NCBI RefSeq assembly: GCF_900102815.1
Contig: NZ_FNGF01000003.1
Location: 62,001 to 126,000, forward strand
Direction: 5' to 3'
Source of the DNA: Glycomyces sambucus
GTDB lineage: Bacteria; Actinomycetota; Actinomycetes; Mycobacteriales; Micromonosporaceae
Length of the DNA stretch: 64,000 nt
The notes under the pieces are model-generated. The model saw nothing but the letters and a program-made list of their open reading frames with translations, was not told the origin of the DNA and did no database searches. How positions within the stretch are numbered: the stretch's first letter is position 1; each line of letters begins with the position of its first letter. The translations under genes and the position numbers were made by a program. Of the stretch, positions 1,953 to 63,243 are shown piece by piece.

Positions 1953-3107
1953 TTACGCCCCGAACGCGACGAACGGGTGCCACGGCCGGTGCTCCCCTAC
2001 GGCCGCAAGGGCTTCGGCGGGGGTGGCGCCGGCCGCGCAGCGGCGGTGGTACTCCAGCATCATGTCGGCGGCCATCGCGTCGGGGACCTTCGCGAGGCTG
2101 GAGACGACGGTCGAGGTGCCCGCGTGCAGGAGCGCCGCGGTGAAGCCCAGGGTCTCGTTCCCGACCTCCACAGTGGAACGTCCGAGGTCGCAGGCGGAGA
2201 GGACCACGTGCGCCGGGGGCTGGTCGAGGCTGAGGAGCTCGTACGCGTTCAGGGGCCCGAGTCCGAAGTCCAGGCGGGAGAACAGGACGTTGTCCGGCTC
2301 GTGGTGCCCGTGCGCGGCGAGGTGCGCGACGGCGGCGCCGTCGAGGGCCCGCAGCACCTCCTCGGGGTCGGACTTCTCGGCCTGCACGAGCGTCGCGTCG
2401 GGGTAGAGCGCGCCGATCGCGGCGACCTCGCTGTCGGCGCGCAGGAGCCGGGGCCCGGCGGCGACGAGCGCCGGGCGGGTCGCGGCGGGGCGGCGCACCG
2501 CGCGCCACCACGCCTCGGCCGAGGGCGCGACCGTGAGCGGGCGCCCGCGCAGCGGCGGCAGCAGCGGCCACGGCACCCAGGCGAGCTTGCTGTGCGGGAT
2601 GACGACGATCTGCCGGTCGCCGACGTAGTCCGCGACCGGGTCCCAGACGCCCTCGGCGAGCGCGGTCGCGTTGCGGCGCATGGCGCTCTCGACGCTCTGG
2701 CGCAGCCGCTCGGGGTGGTGGAACGTGCGGGTCAGGGCGTCGAGGTCGGCGCCGAGGCGGCGCTCCAGTTCGGACGCCGCGTCGAGGTCCATGAGCGGCA
2801 CGTGCCGGAGCCCGTCGCCGCCGGCGAGCAGGGCGCGCACGGTCCCGCCGACCTCGAACATGCTGACCACCACCGTGTCCCGCGACTCGGCGAGGTCGTG
2901 GATGTCGGCGGAGGCGATCCGCTCGGCCTGCTCCCCCGGGCCGGGCCGGGCCCGGTCGTAGTCGCGGATCTCGGCCTCCAGCCCGGAGACCCGCGCCAGC
3001 GCCTCGGCCGCCTCGCGGCCCTCGACCTGGAGCTCCCACAGCTCCTGGCGGGCCTGGCGCAGGCGCCCGAGCGCTTCGCGCGCACCGGGGTCGGAGGAGG
3101 ACTTCAC
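1953..3107 (-). CDS. CHAT-domain (caspase-like) protease, separate cistron from its TPR partner
   Basis: A 384-residue protein, counted from the GTG at 3107. Its C-terminal two thirds form a CHAT domain. The catalytic dyad is intact: His266 in HLAAHGHH and Cys306 in VLSACDLG, followed by the usual LGFTAALLHAG segment. The first 60 residues are charged helical sequence, normally found between TPR repeats and the CHAT domain. The GTG overlaps the TGA of the TPR gene as GTGA. In other actinobacteria TPR and CHAT are usually one polypeptide, and the sequence preceding the GTG in this frame has no good ribosome site, so either coupled re-initiation or a -1 slip on the CCCCC just before the stop would make the product. 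It acts in the cytoplasm. CHAT proteases cut partner proteins in conflict and cell-death systems; the target here is unknown. Confidence 0.85.
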   Translation of the reverse strand: MKSSSDPGAREALGRLRQARQELWELQVEGREAAEALARVSGLEAEIRDYDRARPGPGEQAERIASADIHDLAESRDTVVVSMFEVGGTVRALLAGGDGLRHVPLMDLDAASELERRLGADLDALTRTFHHPERLRQSVESAMRRNATALAEGVWDPVADYVGDRQIVVIPHSKLAWVPWPLLPPLRGRPLTVAPSAEAWWRAVRRPAATRPALVAAGPRLLRADSEVAAIGALYPDATLVQAEKSDPEEVLRALDGAAVAHLAAHGHHEPDNVLFSRLDFGLGPLNAYELLSLDQPPAHVVLSACDLGRSTVEVGNETLGFTAALLHAGTSTVVSSLAKVPDAMAADMMLEYHRRCAAGATPAEALAAVGEHRPWHPFVAFGA

Positions 3108-4465
3108 CGGGGGATGCGCAGCGCCTGGCCGCGGCAGCGCTCGGCCCACTGGAGCATCTCGGCGGGGCTGCCGTGGTTGGTGGTGTGGGTCAGGCCCTTG
3201 CTGGCGAGCTGGATGCCGAGCGCCGAGACCCCGGCCTGGAACTCGACGGAGCCGAACGTGGTGCGGTACTCGTCGAGCAGGTCGAGCCCGGCCCGCAGCT
3301 CGGGCATGGGGTCGCGGTCGAGCGCGATGGCGAGTTCGGCCTTCGCCAGGTACCGGGCCAGCCCCTCGGCGAGCGCGTCGTAGCCGGGGCCGCTGTGCTC
3401 GCCCTGGAGCAGGTCGGCGGCGCCGTCGAGGTCGCGCGCCCTGATCTTGGCGCGGGCGGCGAGGATGCGGGCCTGCTCGAGCCGGAGGGTCCAGCCGCGC
3501 TGCGCCAGCGCGTCGGAGAGCCGGACCACCTTCTCCGCGAAGTCCGGCCCGTCCTCGCCGGCGTCGAACTGCCCCTGGAGGATCAGCAGGCGGGCGAGGA
3601 ACGCCATCGGCTCGTTGCCCTGCTCGTAGAGGGAGTCCATGGCCTGCTGGGCCCAGGTCCCGGCCGTGGTGAACTGCCGGTCCTCGAAGGCCGCCACGGC
3701 CCGCCAGAACTCGTAGATCGCGGCGTTCCGGCGGTCGCCGGCGAGGCGGTGCGCGGCGATCGCGTCGGCCCAGCGCACCGCGGCCTGCCGGTGCATCCCG
3801 ACGTACAGGAGCGCGTCGCCGTACGAACCGTCCACATAGGATTCGAGAATGGGCGAATGGACTCGGAACTGATCGCGGACCTCATCGAGTTCGGAGAGCG
3901 CTTTGGTGACCTCTCCGAGATCGAGCCAGAGCTGCGCCCGCAGAAAGCGGGCCTTCGCGCGGTTCACGGGAATGTCGATGCGGTCGTACAGTTCGATCGC
4001 CCGCTGGATGTTCTCCATTCCCTTGCGGAGCTCGCCGAGATCGCGCCACACCATCGCGCGGTTGTGGAACAGCGCCGCATAGATGTTGTCGGGACCGTTC
4101 ACCGCCAGATGCGGCTCGGCCTCCGCGAACCATTGCAGCGCGTCGGAAAGGCGCCCGCTCTGCCACAGGTTGAACGCCCGCTGGTGCAGCAGCATGCCCC
4201 GGTCCCGGTGGAACACGAATCCGTCGGCGCTGTCGAGGAGCCGCAGTCCCTTTGCGGCATCGCCCATCTGGGCCAGATTGGTGGAGCGGATCATGAGCAC
4301 CTGGGCGGTCAGCCTCGCGCGCGCCGTTCCTGCCTCAGGCGGGTTCGCGGAGTCCCATTGCAGCGATTCGAGCGCCGCCACGAGTGCCTCTTCGGCATCC
4401 CTGATCCGGCCCCGACGGTGCAGTCGCTGGCCTCGATTGAACAGACGCCAGGCATCCTGAAGCAT
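3104..4465 (-). CDS. TPR-repeat protein, upstream half of a TPR-CHAT pair
   Basis: A 453-residue all-helical cytoplasmic protein of degenerate tetratricopeptide repeats. Recognisable repeat cores include ALFHNRAMVWRDLGELRKG and AKARFLRAQLWLDLGEVTKA. It ends with AERCRGQALRIPR, a segment that in fused homologues runs straight into the CHAT linker. The stop TGA is embedded in ATCCCCCGGTGA; reading one base back on the C run would continue in frame as PPVKSSSDPG into the CHAT protein. The ATG at 4465 lies 10 bases after the stop of the 178-residue unknown gene. TPR arrays in such pairs usually sense a ligand or partner and hold the CHAT domain inactive; that role here is inferred from the family. 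Confidence 0.8.
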   Translation of the reverse strand: MLQDAWRLFNRGQRLHRRGRIRDAEEALVAALESLQWDSANPPEAGTARARLTAQVLMIRSTNLAQMGDAAKGLRLLDSADGFVFHRDRGMLLHQRAFNLWQSGRLSDALQWFAEAEPHLAVNGPDNIYAALFHNRAMVWRDLGELRKGMENIQRAIELYDRIDIPVNRAKARFLRAQLWLDLGEVTKALSELDEVRDQFRVHSPILESYVDGSYGDALLYVGMHRQAAVRWADAIAAHRLAGDRRNAAIYEFWRAVAAFEDRQFTTAGTWAQQAMDSLYEQGNEPMAFLARLLILQGQFDAGEDGPDFAEKVVRLSDALAQRGWTLRLEQARILAARAKIRARDLDGAADLLQGEHSGPGYDALAEGLARYLAKAELAIALDRDPMPELRAGLDLLDEYRTTFGSVEFQAGVSALGIQLASKGLTHTTNHGSPAEMLQWAERCRGQALRIPR

Positions 4466-4475
4466 TCTTCACATG

Positions 4476-5012
4476 CTACAGCCGGACCGCCGGGGTCACG
4501 ACCACCGCGGGGAGGCCGTCCCGCTGCAACGCCTCGTCCGGTCGGATCACGAGCTGGAACATCTCGTTGTTCGGCAGTCCCTCCAGCACGAACCTCCCGC
4601 TCGCGTCGGTGGAGACCCGGCGGACGCCCTGCGGACTGCGCAGTTCGACCCCGTAAGTCCCCTCCGGACCTATCCACCCGTCGAGGCGCATCTCCTCCAG
4701 TGCCGAGGGCCGCGGCGTCACCATGACGGTGACGGTCTCGCAGTCGAAGGTGATGGAGGCGGGGTCCCCCTGGTTCACCGTCAGCTCGGCCTCCCCCCGG
4801 ACGAGGGTGAGCTCGGCCGGGCGGTAGACCGACGCGACCTTGGCGTCGAGCGCCGCCTCCAGTTCGAGCACGAAGTGCACCCGCTCGTTGAGGTCGTACG
4901 GCACCGGGTCGTCGCGCCGGTGGAGCTCGTTGATGACAGCGAGGATCCGCTCGTCGCAGGAGTCCAACGGTTCGAACTCGCCTTGGTCCCGATTGTCAGG
5001 TTCCATCTGCAT
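4476..5012 (-). CDS. Uncharacterised protein of the sigma/CHAT operon, possible anti-sigma or protease substrate
   Basis: About 178 residues, with no transmembrane segment or signal. The N-terminal 60 residues are acidic and helical (CDERILAVINELHRRDD, then VHFVLELEAALDAKV). The C-terminal 90 residues look like a beta-sandwich of the carboxypeptidase-regulatory type (VSTDASGRFVLEGLP). I do not recognise a named family. The ATG at 5012 has GAGGAG four bases upstream; ATG at 5006 (spacing 10) and GTG at 5024 are alternatives. The gene overlaps the end of the sigma gene, so the two are translationally coupled, as sigma/anti-sigma pairs often are. An anti-sigma or cleavable adaptor role is inference from this position only. 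Confidence 0.65.
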   Translation of the reverse strand: MQMEPDNRDQGEFEPLDSCDERILAVINELHRRDDPVPYDLNERVHFVLELEAALDAKVASVYRPAELTLVRGEAELTVNQGDPASITFDCETVTVMVTPRPSALEEMRLDGWIGPEGTYGVELRSPQGVRRVSTDASGRFVLEGLPNNEMFQLVIRPDEALQRDGLPAVVVTPAVRL

Positions 5013-5610
5013 TCCGCTCCTCACCTGCGCCCCAGGACGGGTCGTCCAGCAGGGTCCTTCTCAGCTTGTCCAGGCACCGGCCCCGAGTGGGTCCGATGCT
5101 CCCCCTTTTCATCCCGAGCTCTTCGGAGATGACGTCGTAATCCGGCCGGGCGAACGCCGCCACGTAGGCGAGCAGCGCCCGGCACTTGTCGTCCTGCGCG
5201 AGGAAGGCGCGGCGCACCGCCTCGCGCTCGGCGTCGCGGACCAGGTCGTCCTCGATGCCGTCGATGACCGGCTCCTTGATGTCGACCGGGTCCGAGACGA
5301 CCTCGCGCCGCGACTGGCCGGCCACGTTCCAGGCCTCGCGGCTGACCGTGGTGCGCAGCCACTTGGTCAGCGCGCGAGGCTGGTTCAGCCCGTCCCTGGT
5401 GCGCCACAGTCGAAGCCATGCCGTCTGCACCACGTCGGCGGCGCTCTCCCGGTCGAGGCCGGCCCGCCGGGCCACTCGCCAGAGCGGCTCGTTGAGCTCC
5501 TCGATCAGGGTGCGCTGCGCGATGCTGTCGCCGGCGCGCGCGGCGATGTAGAGCCGCGCGTACCGGTCGTAGTCCACCGCCGCCACCGAGTGAGCTGATA
5601 TCGCGTTCAT
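4996..5610 (-). CDS. Sigma-70 family (ECF-like) RNA polymerase sigma factor
   Basis: A 204-residue protein with region 2 (about residues 20-85, including DVVQTAWLRLWRTRD for the core-binding and -10 recognition helices) and region 4 (about 130-190, helix-turn-helix around YDVISEELGMKRGSIGPTRGRCLDKLRR). No region 1.1 or 3 is seen, and the length fits ECF-type factors. It sits 9 bases after the subtilase stop and overlaps the next gene, so it belongs to the protease operon. The ATG at 5610 has only a weak ribosome site, suggesting coupled translation from the subtilase. Its target promoters cannot be deduced. Regulation by proteolysis of a partner is plausible in this context. Confidence 0.85.
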   Translation of the reverse strand: MNAISAHSVAAVDYDRYARLYIAARAGDSIAQRTLIEELNEPLWRVARRAGLDRESAADVVQTAWLRLWRTRDGLNQPRALTKWLRTTVSREAWNVAGQSRREVVSDPVDIKEPVIDGIEDDLVRDAEREAVRRAFLAQDDKCRALLAYVAAFARPDYDVISEELGMKRGSIGPTRGRCLDKLRRTLLDDPSWGAGEERNADGT

Positions 5611-5619
5611 GTCTTCAGG

Positions 5620-7161
5620 CTAGCGACTCTTCAGCCGCGCGAGGGCCGCGTGAGCGCGCTCCGCGGCCTTGACCGAGTCCTGCACCTCCTCGACCCCCGA
5701 CTCGGCGATGGCGTTCAGCAGATAGGCCGCCGCGACCGGGGCCGCGAACGAGGTGCCGCTCCAGACCGCGAACCCCGACGAGAAGTCGTCGAAGTCGTAG
5801 CTCTCGCGGAACCGGTTGCGCACGCTCGACTTCGAGCGGCGCTCGGGCTCGCGGGAGCCCTCGGCCTCGCACGGGTACGTGCTCACCAGCCCGGCCCCGG
5901 TGGCGTAGCACGAGACCCACGGGCCCTCGTTGGAGAACATCGCGATCTCGAGGTTCGGGTTCAGCGCGCCCACGCTCACGATCGGCGCCGCGTTCGCGAG
6001 CGGCTCGTGCGCGGCGAACGCGGCGGGGTAGAACGGCCGGTCCGAGGACTGGTTCCCGGCCGCGGCGACGACGGGGATGCCCAGCGCCGCAAGGCGGTTC
6101 ACCGCGTCGCCGATCCACCCGCCCGGCTCGTCGTGCGGGTTCTCGTCGACGTAGCCCATCGCCAGGACCACCACGTCCACCGCGTACGCCTCGGCGTCGC
6201 CGCCGCGGGCGGCCTCGATCTGGTCCGCGAGGTGGTGGAGCGCGCCGATGACGTCGTGCTCGTACGCGAGGCCGTCGTTGTGGATGACCCGCAGCGAGTA
6301 GACCTGCACGTCGGGCGAGAGCTGCCGCAGCAGCCCGGTGATGAAGGTGCCGTGCCCGAAGTGGCTCGCGACCTCGCCGATGAGGGTCGGCTCGTGGACC
6401 GGCCCCTCCCACGGGTCGTCCAGCGGGATCGCCGGGGAGTCGGAGTGCTCGCCGAGCTTCACCTGGAAGGCGTGGTCGACCACGACGAAGGTGTCCTCGT
6501 CCTCGGACCGGTCCGAGACGTCGAACGCGGGGTGGCGGTTCGGGACGCCGGTGTCGAGCACCGCGACCCGCAGGCGGCGGTCGAGGCGCCGGCGCGAGGG
6601 CATGGGGTTGACCATGTCGACCGGGACGCGCCCGAGGGACGCCGCGCGCGGGCCCCCGGCCGGCGTCTCGCCGCCGCCGATGCCGATGCCGCCTTTGGAG
6701 CAGATCATCAGGTGCTCCAGGCGGACCTTGTCGAGGAGCTCCACCGGGAGGCTCTCCTCGCTGGTGTCGGTGCGCAGGCGCTGGAGCAGCGACCACGCGT
6801 CGACGCCGGCGTGGTCCCCGTGGGCGCTCACCACCGGGACGCGGTACGAGCCCTGGCCGGGCACGAGCGTGCTCGCGGGCTGGCTCTCGATCGTCATGCC
6901 GCTGGGCCGGATCGCCCCTTCGAGCCGGCGGAGGGCCGCCTCGTCGTTGATGACCGACTCGTCGACCAGCAGCCGGTCGTAGCGGTAGATAGTGCCGACG
7001 GGGGCCGAGCGGCCCGCGGTGCGGACGACCTGGCCCGGGGCGAGGACGCGGCCGCCGTGGCGGTCCAGAGTGGAGTAGGCGAGTTCGGGCACGCCGCTCA
7101 TGTGGTCGCGGCGCGGATTGGGCTTCAGATGGGGTTCGTTCTCGGCGAACACCAATCGCAT
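5620..7161 (-). CDS. Cytoplasmic S8 subtilisin-like serine protease
   Basis: A 513-residue protein with the full subtilase triad: Asp203 in AVLDTGVPNRHPAF, His270 in SHFGHGTF, Ser471 in SGTSFAAP, plus the oxyanion asparagine Asn370 in AAAGNQ. About 190 N-terminal residues precede the catalytic domain and have no signal peptide, transmembrane segment or classical inhibitor-I9 look, so it is predicted to stay in the cytoplasm. Most actinobacterial subtilases are secreted, which makes this one unusual. The ATG at 7161 has AGGAG at good spacing; an in-frame start at 7290 would add a low-complexity basic stretch and is rejected. It is the first gene of the sigma-TPR-CHAT operon and probably acts with it. 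Confidence 0.88.
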   Translation of the reverse strand: MRLVFAENEPHLKPNPRRDHMSGVPELAYSTLDRHGGRVLAPGQVVRTAGRSAPVGTIYRYDRLLVDESVINDEAALRRLEGAIRPSGMTIESQPASTLVPGQGSYRVPVVSAHGDHAGVDAWSLLQRLRTDTSEESLPVELLDKVRLEHLMICSKGGIGIGGGETPAGGPRAASLGRVPVDMVNPMPSRRRLDRRLRVAVLDTGVPNRHPAFDVSDRSEDEDTFVVVDHAFQVKLGEHSDSPAIPLDDPWEGPVHEPTLIGEVASHFGHGTFITGLLRQLSPDVQVYSLRVIHNDGLAYEHDVIGALHHLADQIEAARGGDAEAYAVDVVVLAMGYVDENPHDEPGGWIGDAVNRLAALGIPVVAAAGNQSSDRPFYPAAFAAHEPLANAAPIVSVGALNPNLEIAMFSNEGPWVSCYATGAGLVSTYPCEAEGSREPERRSKSSVRNRFRESYDFDDFSSGFAVWSGTSFAAPVAAAYLLNAIAESGVEEVQDSVKAAERAHAALARLKSR

Positions 7162-61591: not shown

Positions 61592-63243
61592 TGCGGGTCC
61601 AGGACATCGACCACGCGGCCCTGCTGCCGCTGTACCTCGCGGCCGCCGCCGCGGTGCTCGCCCTGCTCGCGGGCCGCTTCGCGAAGGGCGCCGCCATGAC
61701 CGGGCTCGCCGCCGCCGCGGGCGCCGCCGTCTGGGTCGGCCTCGGGCCGGACCGGGCCACGTTCGCGGTCGGCGAGTGGCACTCCTACGTCGCCGACGAC
61801 GCCGCCATGGGCACCGCCGCCCTCTTCGCGGGCCTCGCGGTCCTCGTCGCGGCTGTGAGCGGGCGCCAGGCCGGGGAGTACTGGTTCCTCCTCGCGGCCT
61901 CCGCCGCGGGCGGGATCGCGCTCGCCGGGGCACGGGACCTCGTGACGCTCGTCGTCGCCGTCGAGACGCTCACCCTGCCCCTGTACGTCCTGGTGGCGCG
62001 CCCCGGCCGCGCCGGGGCGGAGGCCGGGACGACCTTCCTCATCGCCTCGGTGACCGCATCGGCGACCGCGCTCATGGGCGCGGCGCTCCTGTACGCCGCG
62101 AGCGGGACCGTGCACCTCGCCGGCCTCGGCGCGGGCCTCGCGGACGCGCACGCGGGCCTCACCGCCGCCGGAGTCGCGCTCCTGCTCGCCGGACTCGCCT
62201 TCAAACTCGCCGCCGCGCCGCTGCACTCGTGGGCGCCGCTGGTCCTCGAACGCGCCCCGCTGCCGGTCGCCACATACCTCGCGAGCGCGTCGAAGCTCGG
62301 CGGGGCCGCGGCCGTCACCTGGGTCGTCTACTTCGGACTCGCGGGCGAGGCGAGCGCCGGGATCACCGCCGCGGTCCTCAGCGTCGCCTCGATCCTCATC
62401 GGGAACCTGGGCGCGCTCGTGCAGCGCCGCACGGTGCCGCTGCTCGCCTGGTCGGGCATCGCCCACGCCGGGTACGCGCTCGCCCCGCTGGCGGTCCTCG
62501 CCACGGCGGCCGGACGCGAGCAGGCCGGCCCCGCCGCCTCCGCGACCCTCGCCTACGCGGTCTTCTTCGTCCTCCTGGAGGCGGGCGCGTTCGCCGCCTT
62601 GACGGCCGTCCGGCCCGAGACCGCCGACCTCTTCGCCGCGGACCCCGCACCGGAACCCGGACCCGGCCCCGCGCCGGCCACCGGAATCGGGGCCGCACCA
62701 GCCCCCGGAACCGAGGCCGCAACCAGGGCCGCAACCGATACCGCAACCGACCGCGAAACCGGAGCCCAGGTCGCGTCGGCGGAGCGTCGGACCCCCAAGG
62801 CAGACTTGCAATCGGGGGGTCCCCGGGGGTCCGTTTTGAAGGCTGACGCCGGAAATGCCGGACTCCAGCGCCGCGACGACGACCCCGGCGGGCGGATCGC
62901 GGAGCTCTCCGGGCTGTGGAAGGCCGCGCCGCTGCCAGCGGCGGTGCTCCTGACGGCCGTCATCGGGCTCGCCGGGCTGCCGCCCGCGCTCGCGGGGACG
63001 TTCGCCAAGGTCGCCGTCCTCGAAGTGCTCGCCTCCTCGGCCGTGTGGCTCGCCGTCGTGGTCGCGGCCGGGGCCGTGGTCGGGCTCGCGTACTACCTGC
63101 CGCTCGCCCGGGTCCTCCTGACCGGCCGCGCCGCGGCCGCCCCGCGCCGGTACGCGGTGGCGCTCGTCCTGGCCGGCCTCGCCCTCGCCGCGGTCTCGCT
63201 CGCGCCGCAGCTCGTGTTGGACTTCACGTCCGTTTCACGGTGA
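61591..63243 (+). CDS. nuoN: NADH-quinone oxidoreductase subunit N-like protein with an inserted loop
   Basis: A 550-residue polytopic protein. Features include VTLVVAVETLTLPLYVLVA (channel Glu), LAFKLAAAPLHSWAPLVLE (channel Lys) and PVATYLASASKLGGAAAV. Near residues 349-430 a hydrophilic Pro/Ala/Thr-rich insertion interrupts two helices. It contains low-complexity repeats and a piece coding RRTPKADLQSGGPRGSVLK with codons unlike the rest of the gene. The ATG at 61591 overlaps the nuoM TGA as TGATG. Confidence 0.9.
   Translation: MRVQDIDHAALLPLYLAAAAAVLALLAGRFAKGAAMTGLAAAAGAAVWVGLGPDRATFAVGEWHSYVADDAAMGTAALFAGLAVLVAAVSGRQAGEYWFLLAASAAGGIALAGARDLVTLVVAVETLTLPLYVLVARPGRAGAEAGTTFLIASVTASATALMGAALLYAASGTVHLAGLGAGLADAHAGLTAAGVALLLAGLAFKLAAAPLHSWAPLVLERAPLPVATYLASASKLGGAAAVTWVVYFGLAGEASAGITAAVLSVASILIGNLGALVQRRTVPLLAWSGIAHAGYALAPLAVLATAAGREQAGPAASATLAYAVFFVLLEAGAFAALTAVRPETADLFAADPAPEPGPGPAPATGIGAAPAPGTEAATRAATDTATDRETGAQVASAERRTPKADLQSGGPRGSVLKADAGNAGLQRRDDDPGGRIAELSGLWKAAPLPAAVLLTAVIGLAGLPPALAGTFAKVAVLEVLASSAVWLAVVVAAGAVVGLAYYLPLARVLLTGRAAAAPRRYAVALVLAGLALAAVSLAPQLVLDFTSVSR
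62789..62832 (+). repeat. Palindromic element inside the nuoN insertion
   Basis: GGACCCCC (62789-62796) pairs with GGGGGTCC at 62815-62822, and a second GGGGGTCC follows at 62825-62832. The following bases CGTTTTGAAGG are unusually AT-rich for a coding region here. Confidence 0.5.

Follow-up and report, generated by a model that had tools for sequence, protein, structure and literature searches.

Csx29, which belongs to the type III-E CRISPR Craspase (8EEY, 7ZOQ), combines a TPR arm with a following CHAT protease bearing a His/Cys dyad. The available part of PMC10028731 describes it as being activated via its TPR domain to cleave an inhibitor of a sigma factor. A structural model of an intact relative of the gene described here was matched to Csx29 by Foldseek with E-values of 1.6e-13 and 5.1e-13, albeit with a loose superposition (rmsd about 13 Å, TM about 0.4) and only 13–14% identity. 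The best Foldseek match was separase (9hm7, 7nj0; E 4.9e-15), which likewise joins a helical-repeat arm to a caspase-like protease, but is eukaryotic, shares 12–14% identity in another loose superposition, and is represented among the eight top matches listed by chains of 1141–1684 residues. Finally, in the bacterial EACC2 systems, a caspase-like protease, an ECF sigma factor and a TPR protein are encoded together, although the accessible part of the source describes caspase domains with EACC2 and DUF1822 TPR proteins rather than CHAT, and the three matches to the string “chat” in that part are fragments of author names (PMC8195603).

The locus that we analysed lies in a stretch of 64,000 nucleotides (hereafter “the window”), which corresponds to positions 62001–126000 of its contig (C9) in a 5.6-Mb genome, and the closest named matches of its CHAT protein are from Glycomyces species. 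Its features are collected in Table 1. As with Csx29 and its target, there is a connection to sigma factors, since the operon encodes one of the ECF type. However, the neighbors identified by Pfam and tblastn are an S8 peptidase, a sigma factor and a small protein, and the chain that is continuous in Csx29 is broken in the window. Against the Csx29 family NF041237 (NCBIfam), the CHAT protein of the window scored 21.5 bits and the intact relative 19.1, both far below the cut-off of 300, which places them outside that family.

Table 1. Features of the TPR/CHAT locus and its operon (window coordinates)
Feature	Position	Strand	Remarks
TPR ORF, 453 aa	4465-3104	minus	Probable N-terminal portion of the ancestral TPR-CHAT gene; last codons ATC CCC CGG TGA; TPR_2 match
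CHAT ORF, 384 aa from GTG	3107-1953	minus	Probable C-terminal part of the ancestral gene; PF12770 at residues 145-369
C5 run	3113-3109	minus	Window one base short compared with aligned relatives, in or beside the run
GTGA stop/start overlap, 4 bases	3107-3104	minus	By-product of Val GTG and Lys AAG
Putative catalytic His codon, His266 of CHAT ORF	2310..2312	minus	Near-invariant column H719 (alignment A1); role by analogy with Csx29 H615 (available part of PMC10028731)
Putative catalytic Cys codon, Cys306 of CHAT ORF	2190..2192	minus	Near-invariant column C759 (alignment A1); role by analogy with Csx29 C658 (available part of PMC10028731)
Small protein, 182 aa	4476..5024	minus	No Pfam match; third gene of the operon; ORF shares 29 nt with the sigma ORF
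ECF-type sigma-70 factor, 204 aa	4996..5610	minus	TIGR02937, 57.4 bits (cut-off 42.9)
S8 (subtilase) serine peptidase	5620..7161	minus	PF00082, 63.3 bits; start codon inferred

On the minus strand, the junction between the two ORFs reads CGC ATC CCC CGG TGA AGT, which in the CHAT frame is CCC CCG GTG AAG. The original prediction had described a run of five Cs here, together with a TPR gene whose stop codon is overlapped by the GTG start of the CHAT gene, and the sequence agrees with that description to the base. Each half is recognizable in its own right. The TPR ORF matches PF07719 with 31.7 bits (Pfam cut-off 27), and the CHAT ORF matches PF12770 with 101.8 bits against a curated Pfam cut-off of 24, a score that supports its assignment to the TPR-CHAT family. 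Moreover, the putative catalytic pair is intact in its motifs AAHGHH (His266) and LSACDLG (Cys306). What had been proposed on this basis was a control layer, in which the locus would switch between separate and fused proteins or make both in a fixed ratio, with a recent frameshift as the alternative.

We searched for the CHAT protein of the window in 61 genomes, including its own. A match was found in all 21 other genomes of the genus (68–87% identity), and in every one of them a single frame crosses the junction, where it reads PPVK. The typical frame in these relatives encodes an 838-aa TPR-CHAT protein, in agreement with the length that the original prediction gave as usual for the family. 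In 20 of the 21, the whole TPR half (query residues 1–452) shares the frame of CHAT; in the remaining one (G011), a contig end cuts the gene 59 residues upstream of the junction, and the frame is unbroken from there on. The two domains are thus found in one polypeptide in the genus, and in the window they are not. According to the alignment, the window lacks one base that its relatives have, either within the C run or next to it, and neither the frame break nor the GTGA stop/start overlap occurs in any of the 21.

Because a long open frame in GC-rich DNA is not in itself proof of a fusion, we consider it stronger evidence that the two halves were found in the same frame in all 68 loci (out of 80; many of them the same gene fetched from two collections) in which both were matched. 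Ten of the other loci have CHAT without a TPR match, six of which reach the end of the available stretch, and two have no match at all. In a search across the order, 143 of 397 genomes had a match at E 1e-20, and among the best 150 places listed, 145 have frames of 837 aa or more. In the remaining five the frame is shorter: the window itself (642 aa), three places that reach contig ends (G011, G089:C472, and G180, whose junction is outside the visible sequence), and one 312-aa CHAT protein without a TPR match. Other short frames in the 61-genome search belong to G026, G035, G044:C97, the second pieces of G003 and G022, a second place in G024 that lacks a TPR match, and some weak matches. At G022:C1:3542444-3543600, the window CHAT protein matches two overlapping pieces (residues 3–288 and 279–384, in open frames of 787 and 226 aa), which looks like a frame break within the CHAT domain of another genome.

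Based on these comparisons, we conclude, with a probability of about 0.87, that this locus represents a single, conserved TPR-CHAT gene, the last in an operon of S8 peptidase, ECF sigma factor, small protein and TPR-CHAT, that carries a one-base frame break in one genome, and that the break is either a recent slippage mutation or an assembly error rather than a programmed switch. Between mutation and error we see about even chances. The alignment of relatives had been named beforehand as the test that could refute the proposed switch, and with an uninterrupted junction in 21 of 21 (in one case with sequence only from 59 residues upstream onward), it spoke against a separate/fused control mechanism, whereas the suggestion of a recent frameshift fits a break confined to one genome.

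The neatness of the junction can be accounted for by the codons that surround it. In the 21 relatives, the junction Val codon is GTG in nine, GTC in 11 and GTT in one. In all nine with GTG, the +1 frame runs straight into the overlapping TGA, while in the other 12 it remains open for 39–213 codons. Consequently, the loss of one base just upstream of a Val-Lys GTG AAR creates a GTGA stop/start without any selection for coupling. Nor is the C run itself unusual: there are four G/C runs of five or more in the gene, one of them in the linker between the two domains, and the conserved coding DNA of the same contig (183 kb) contains 425 such runs. At the corresponding site in the 21 relatives, the longest C run is two bases in 11, three in eight and six in two. 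The C run and the overlap are not beyond chance.

A programmed −1 ribosomal frameshift on the C run, which would yield a fixed ratio of truncated TPR protein to full TPR-CHAT, has in its favor that the junction sequence of the family, PPVKSS, arises in the −1 frame, and that a CCC codon in the P-site might re-pair one base back. However, the canonical slippery heptamer has the form X XXY YYZ, which by inspection C CCC CGG does not fit, and the 76 nt downstream fold no more stably than shuffled sequences (hairpins only; z +1.07, with 174 of 200 shuffles at least as good). In addition, neither the C run, which varies as described above, nor the break is conserved. With no heptamer, no unusual structure and no conserved run or break, little is left of the slip that had been envisaged to set a ratio of free to fused protease, and we judge programmed frameshifting to be very unlikely. 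Phase variation, in which slippage of the C run would toggle the fused gene on and off, draws on the position of the break in or beside a homopolymer, and is in our judgment scarcely credible: five bases are short for a contingency tract, the run at this site is no longer than three bases in 19 of the 21 relatives, and it is one of four comparable G/C runs in the gene.

As an independent start for CHAT, the GTG had a Shine-Dalgarno energy of −2.5 kcal/mol, which was equaled or bettered by 56% of 400 random positions, and the in-frame GTG at 3149 had one of −3.0, compared with a random mean of −3.29. Hence, we rejected such a start. The energies elsewhere in the operon are also poor (−1.8 for the TPR ATG and −2.4 for the sigma ATG), and as these starts lack a Shine-Dalgarno sequence by the same measure, the test is a weak one when taken alone.

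Neither half shows visible decay. Among positions that are invariant in the 20 complete relatives, the window has changed one of 149 in CHAT and two of 116 in TPR, within the ranges given by leave-one-out controls (0–6 and 0–9, respectively). The three nearest relatives tested gave CHAT dN/dS values of 0.14, 0.15 and 0.30. Likewise, 17–20 lineage-specific amino acid changes were counted for the window and 14–18 for its relative L004, in comparisons that used L004 and three outgroups. With the invariant positions kept in both halves and a low dN/dS in CHAT, pseudogene decay was not seen. A break of recent origin, an error and a split still under selection would all be compatible with this.

We also considered whether a generally poor assembly could explain the break, and discarded the idea, given that the contig of the window was no worse than the control contigs. 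Under a stricter filter, 400 kb of the contig contained one clean frame break peculiar to this genome in the 183 kb of conserved coding DNA. The places listed were the TPR-CHAT gene, found with both references, and C9:46015, which was found from G008 alone, is listed for G014 too, and according to the ORF list appears to be a pair of distinct genes. In G014 this filter gave four distinct places, including the shared one, and in G008 two (230 and 150 kb, respectively), of which perhaps only some are true breaks. A looser filter gave three and four candidate breaks on the window contig (in 167 and 91 testable genes) and five to six in each of four control comparisons; judged by reading, most of these are probably start extensions or overlapping alignments in alternative frames. 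The break is within the background of comparable assemblies. Nevertheless, a contig with a single such event in 183 kb and 425 G/C runs is not one with frequent frame errors, which weakens the explanation by error alone. In the available part of PMC3711429, a survey of frame transitions in prokaryotes, singletons are taken to be probable indels or errors of sequencing, and the window resembles such cases in that a conserved ORF is broken in one genome only; we noted no point in which it differs from them. A recombination breakpoint at the junction was rejected as well. In sliding identities with seven chosen relatives (L008 was excluded because of a contig end), the N-terminal part of TPR is nearest to L015, and others are nearer beyond approximately aligned residue 325–375, which puts the change of ancestry upstream of the junction.

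The position of the break within the protein was assessed on the intact relative L042, modeled with AlphaFold2 (mean pLDDT 86). Residues 452–457, the junction PPVKSS, have a pLDDT below 50 and lie between helices 434–448 and 460–481, which would place the break in a disordered linker, after the final helix of the TPR part and before the CHAT helices begin. A break in such a low-confidence linker would do the least harm if two separate chains were made. With just six of 837 residues, the linker would seldom be hit by a break placed uniformly at random; yet it holds one of the four G/C runs of at least five in the gene, and C runs may be favored in proline-rich linkers of GC-rich DNA.

These considerations bear on the idea of a recent functional fission, in which the break would be real and fixed, with TPR and CHAT being made by termination-reinitiation at the GTGA and associating non-covalently. 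Besides the location in a disordered linker, it is in keeping with the conserved residues retained in both halves, as a working split also predicts constraint, and with the available part of PMC10666635, in which an overlap of 4 nt is one of the most frequent spacings between paired genes on the same strand and is said to support coupling. There is also a second TPR/CHAT pair in the same genome (L143; G000:C16:6639-9585) that consists of two genes, with a 400-aa CHAT protein encoded directly after a separate TPR gene at a gap of 7 nt. Among 19 loci related to this second pair that were fetched (of 49 places listed), 13 are two-gene loci (L145–L157), 12 with the genes in different frames and one in the same frame with an intervening stop, while in the six more distant ones (L158–L163) both matches are in one frame. 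In the two-gene loci, TPR precedes CHAT, and the spacing between them ranges from −16 nt (an overlap) to +170 nt. Fusion and fission thus look labile in this group, and the second pair and its 13 relatives imply that a two-gene form is possible in principle. Although the second pair resembles the window in having a TPR gene followed by a CHAT gene, its CHAT protein is more distant (tblastn at E 1e-5 did not match it to the window CHAT), and its split is common to related genomes, whereas that of the window is found in one. Against functional fission are the absence of the break from every relative examined, the fact that the overlap follows automatically from a GTG Val codon, the lack of a Shine-Dalgarno sequence at that GTG, and the fact that decay would be just as scant if the break were very young or an error. 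Overall, we think it unlikely. We regard as quite unlikely, too, the more specific outcome that a very recent, real fission at the flexible linker has turned a tethered separase-like protease into two coupled proteins, a free CHAT protease and a TPR regulator in fixed ratio, with the GTGA as the reinitiation site; a fixed ratio of this kind may perhaps apply also to the separate two-gene pair.

The operon around the junction is well conserved. The S8 peptidase, the sigma factor, the small protein and TPR-CHAT occur in this order on the same strand in all 18 same-genus loci with full flanks, and the order recurs in five loci from other genera (25 loci were given, two of them truncated, L038 and L056). 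A CHAT protein of 312 aa that has no TPR match (L137:4001-4939; G416:C58) is located near ORFs with matches to sigma-70 region 2 and S8 peptidase, and may represent this operon in a form that lacks TPR. In the window, the ORFs of the sigma factor and the small protein overlap by 29 nt (4996–5024), and the corresponding matches overlap by ~20–26 nt in the 18 same-genus loci. Conserved coupling is more plausible here than at the TPR/CHAT junction.

The TPR half has diverged far more than the rest of the operon, with a mean identity of 63.5% over 19 genomes compared with 76.1% for CHAT. For example, L035 and L036 share 93% identity in CHAT and 94% in the sigma factor, but only 63% in TPR. The TPR half of the window is nearest to L015 (77%), and the CHAT half to L004 (87%). 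Judged from these identities, an exchange of the sensor arm is suggested. PADLOC returned no match for the TPR, CHAT, small or sigma proteins, or for the intact relative, and only a weak subtilase match for the S8 protein. Searching the literature, we recognized no publication on the operon from titles and the starts of abstracts, which does not prove that none exists, and found none in the collection searched that combines CHAT, frameshift, TPR and split; the available part of PMC7159879 contains no occurrence of “chat”.

In the conserved single-gene reading that we favor, the ancestral state is probably one chain consisting of a TPR sensor arm, a flexible linker and a caspase/separase-like CHAT protease. 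Should the break be real, ribosomes would stop after the TPR arm, the CHAT part would be made only by reinitiation at the overlapping GTG, and the protease would presumably be reduced or uncoupled from its sensor arm. In the intact gene, we envisage that the TPR arm would sense a signal and re-set the CHAT active site allosterically, and that the protease would then act on a partner tied to the ECF sigma factor, in the manner of Csx29 of the Craspase and its sigma-factor inhibitor. By analogy with that system, intact TPR-CHAT is likely to be a sensor-gated protease that feeds into an ECF sigma factor.

The regulatory switch proposed for this locus loses support, and a broken or mis-assembled TPR-CHAT gene is the better annotation. 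The case also illustrates a general trap, in that the loss of a single base before a Val-Lys GTG AAR mimics a neat “coupled gene pair” in the absence of selection. The finding to retain is the conserved operon that joins an S8 protease, an ECF sigma factor, a small protein and TPR-CHAT, and whose TPR arm varies much more than its neighbors.
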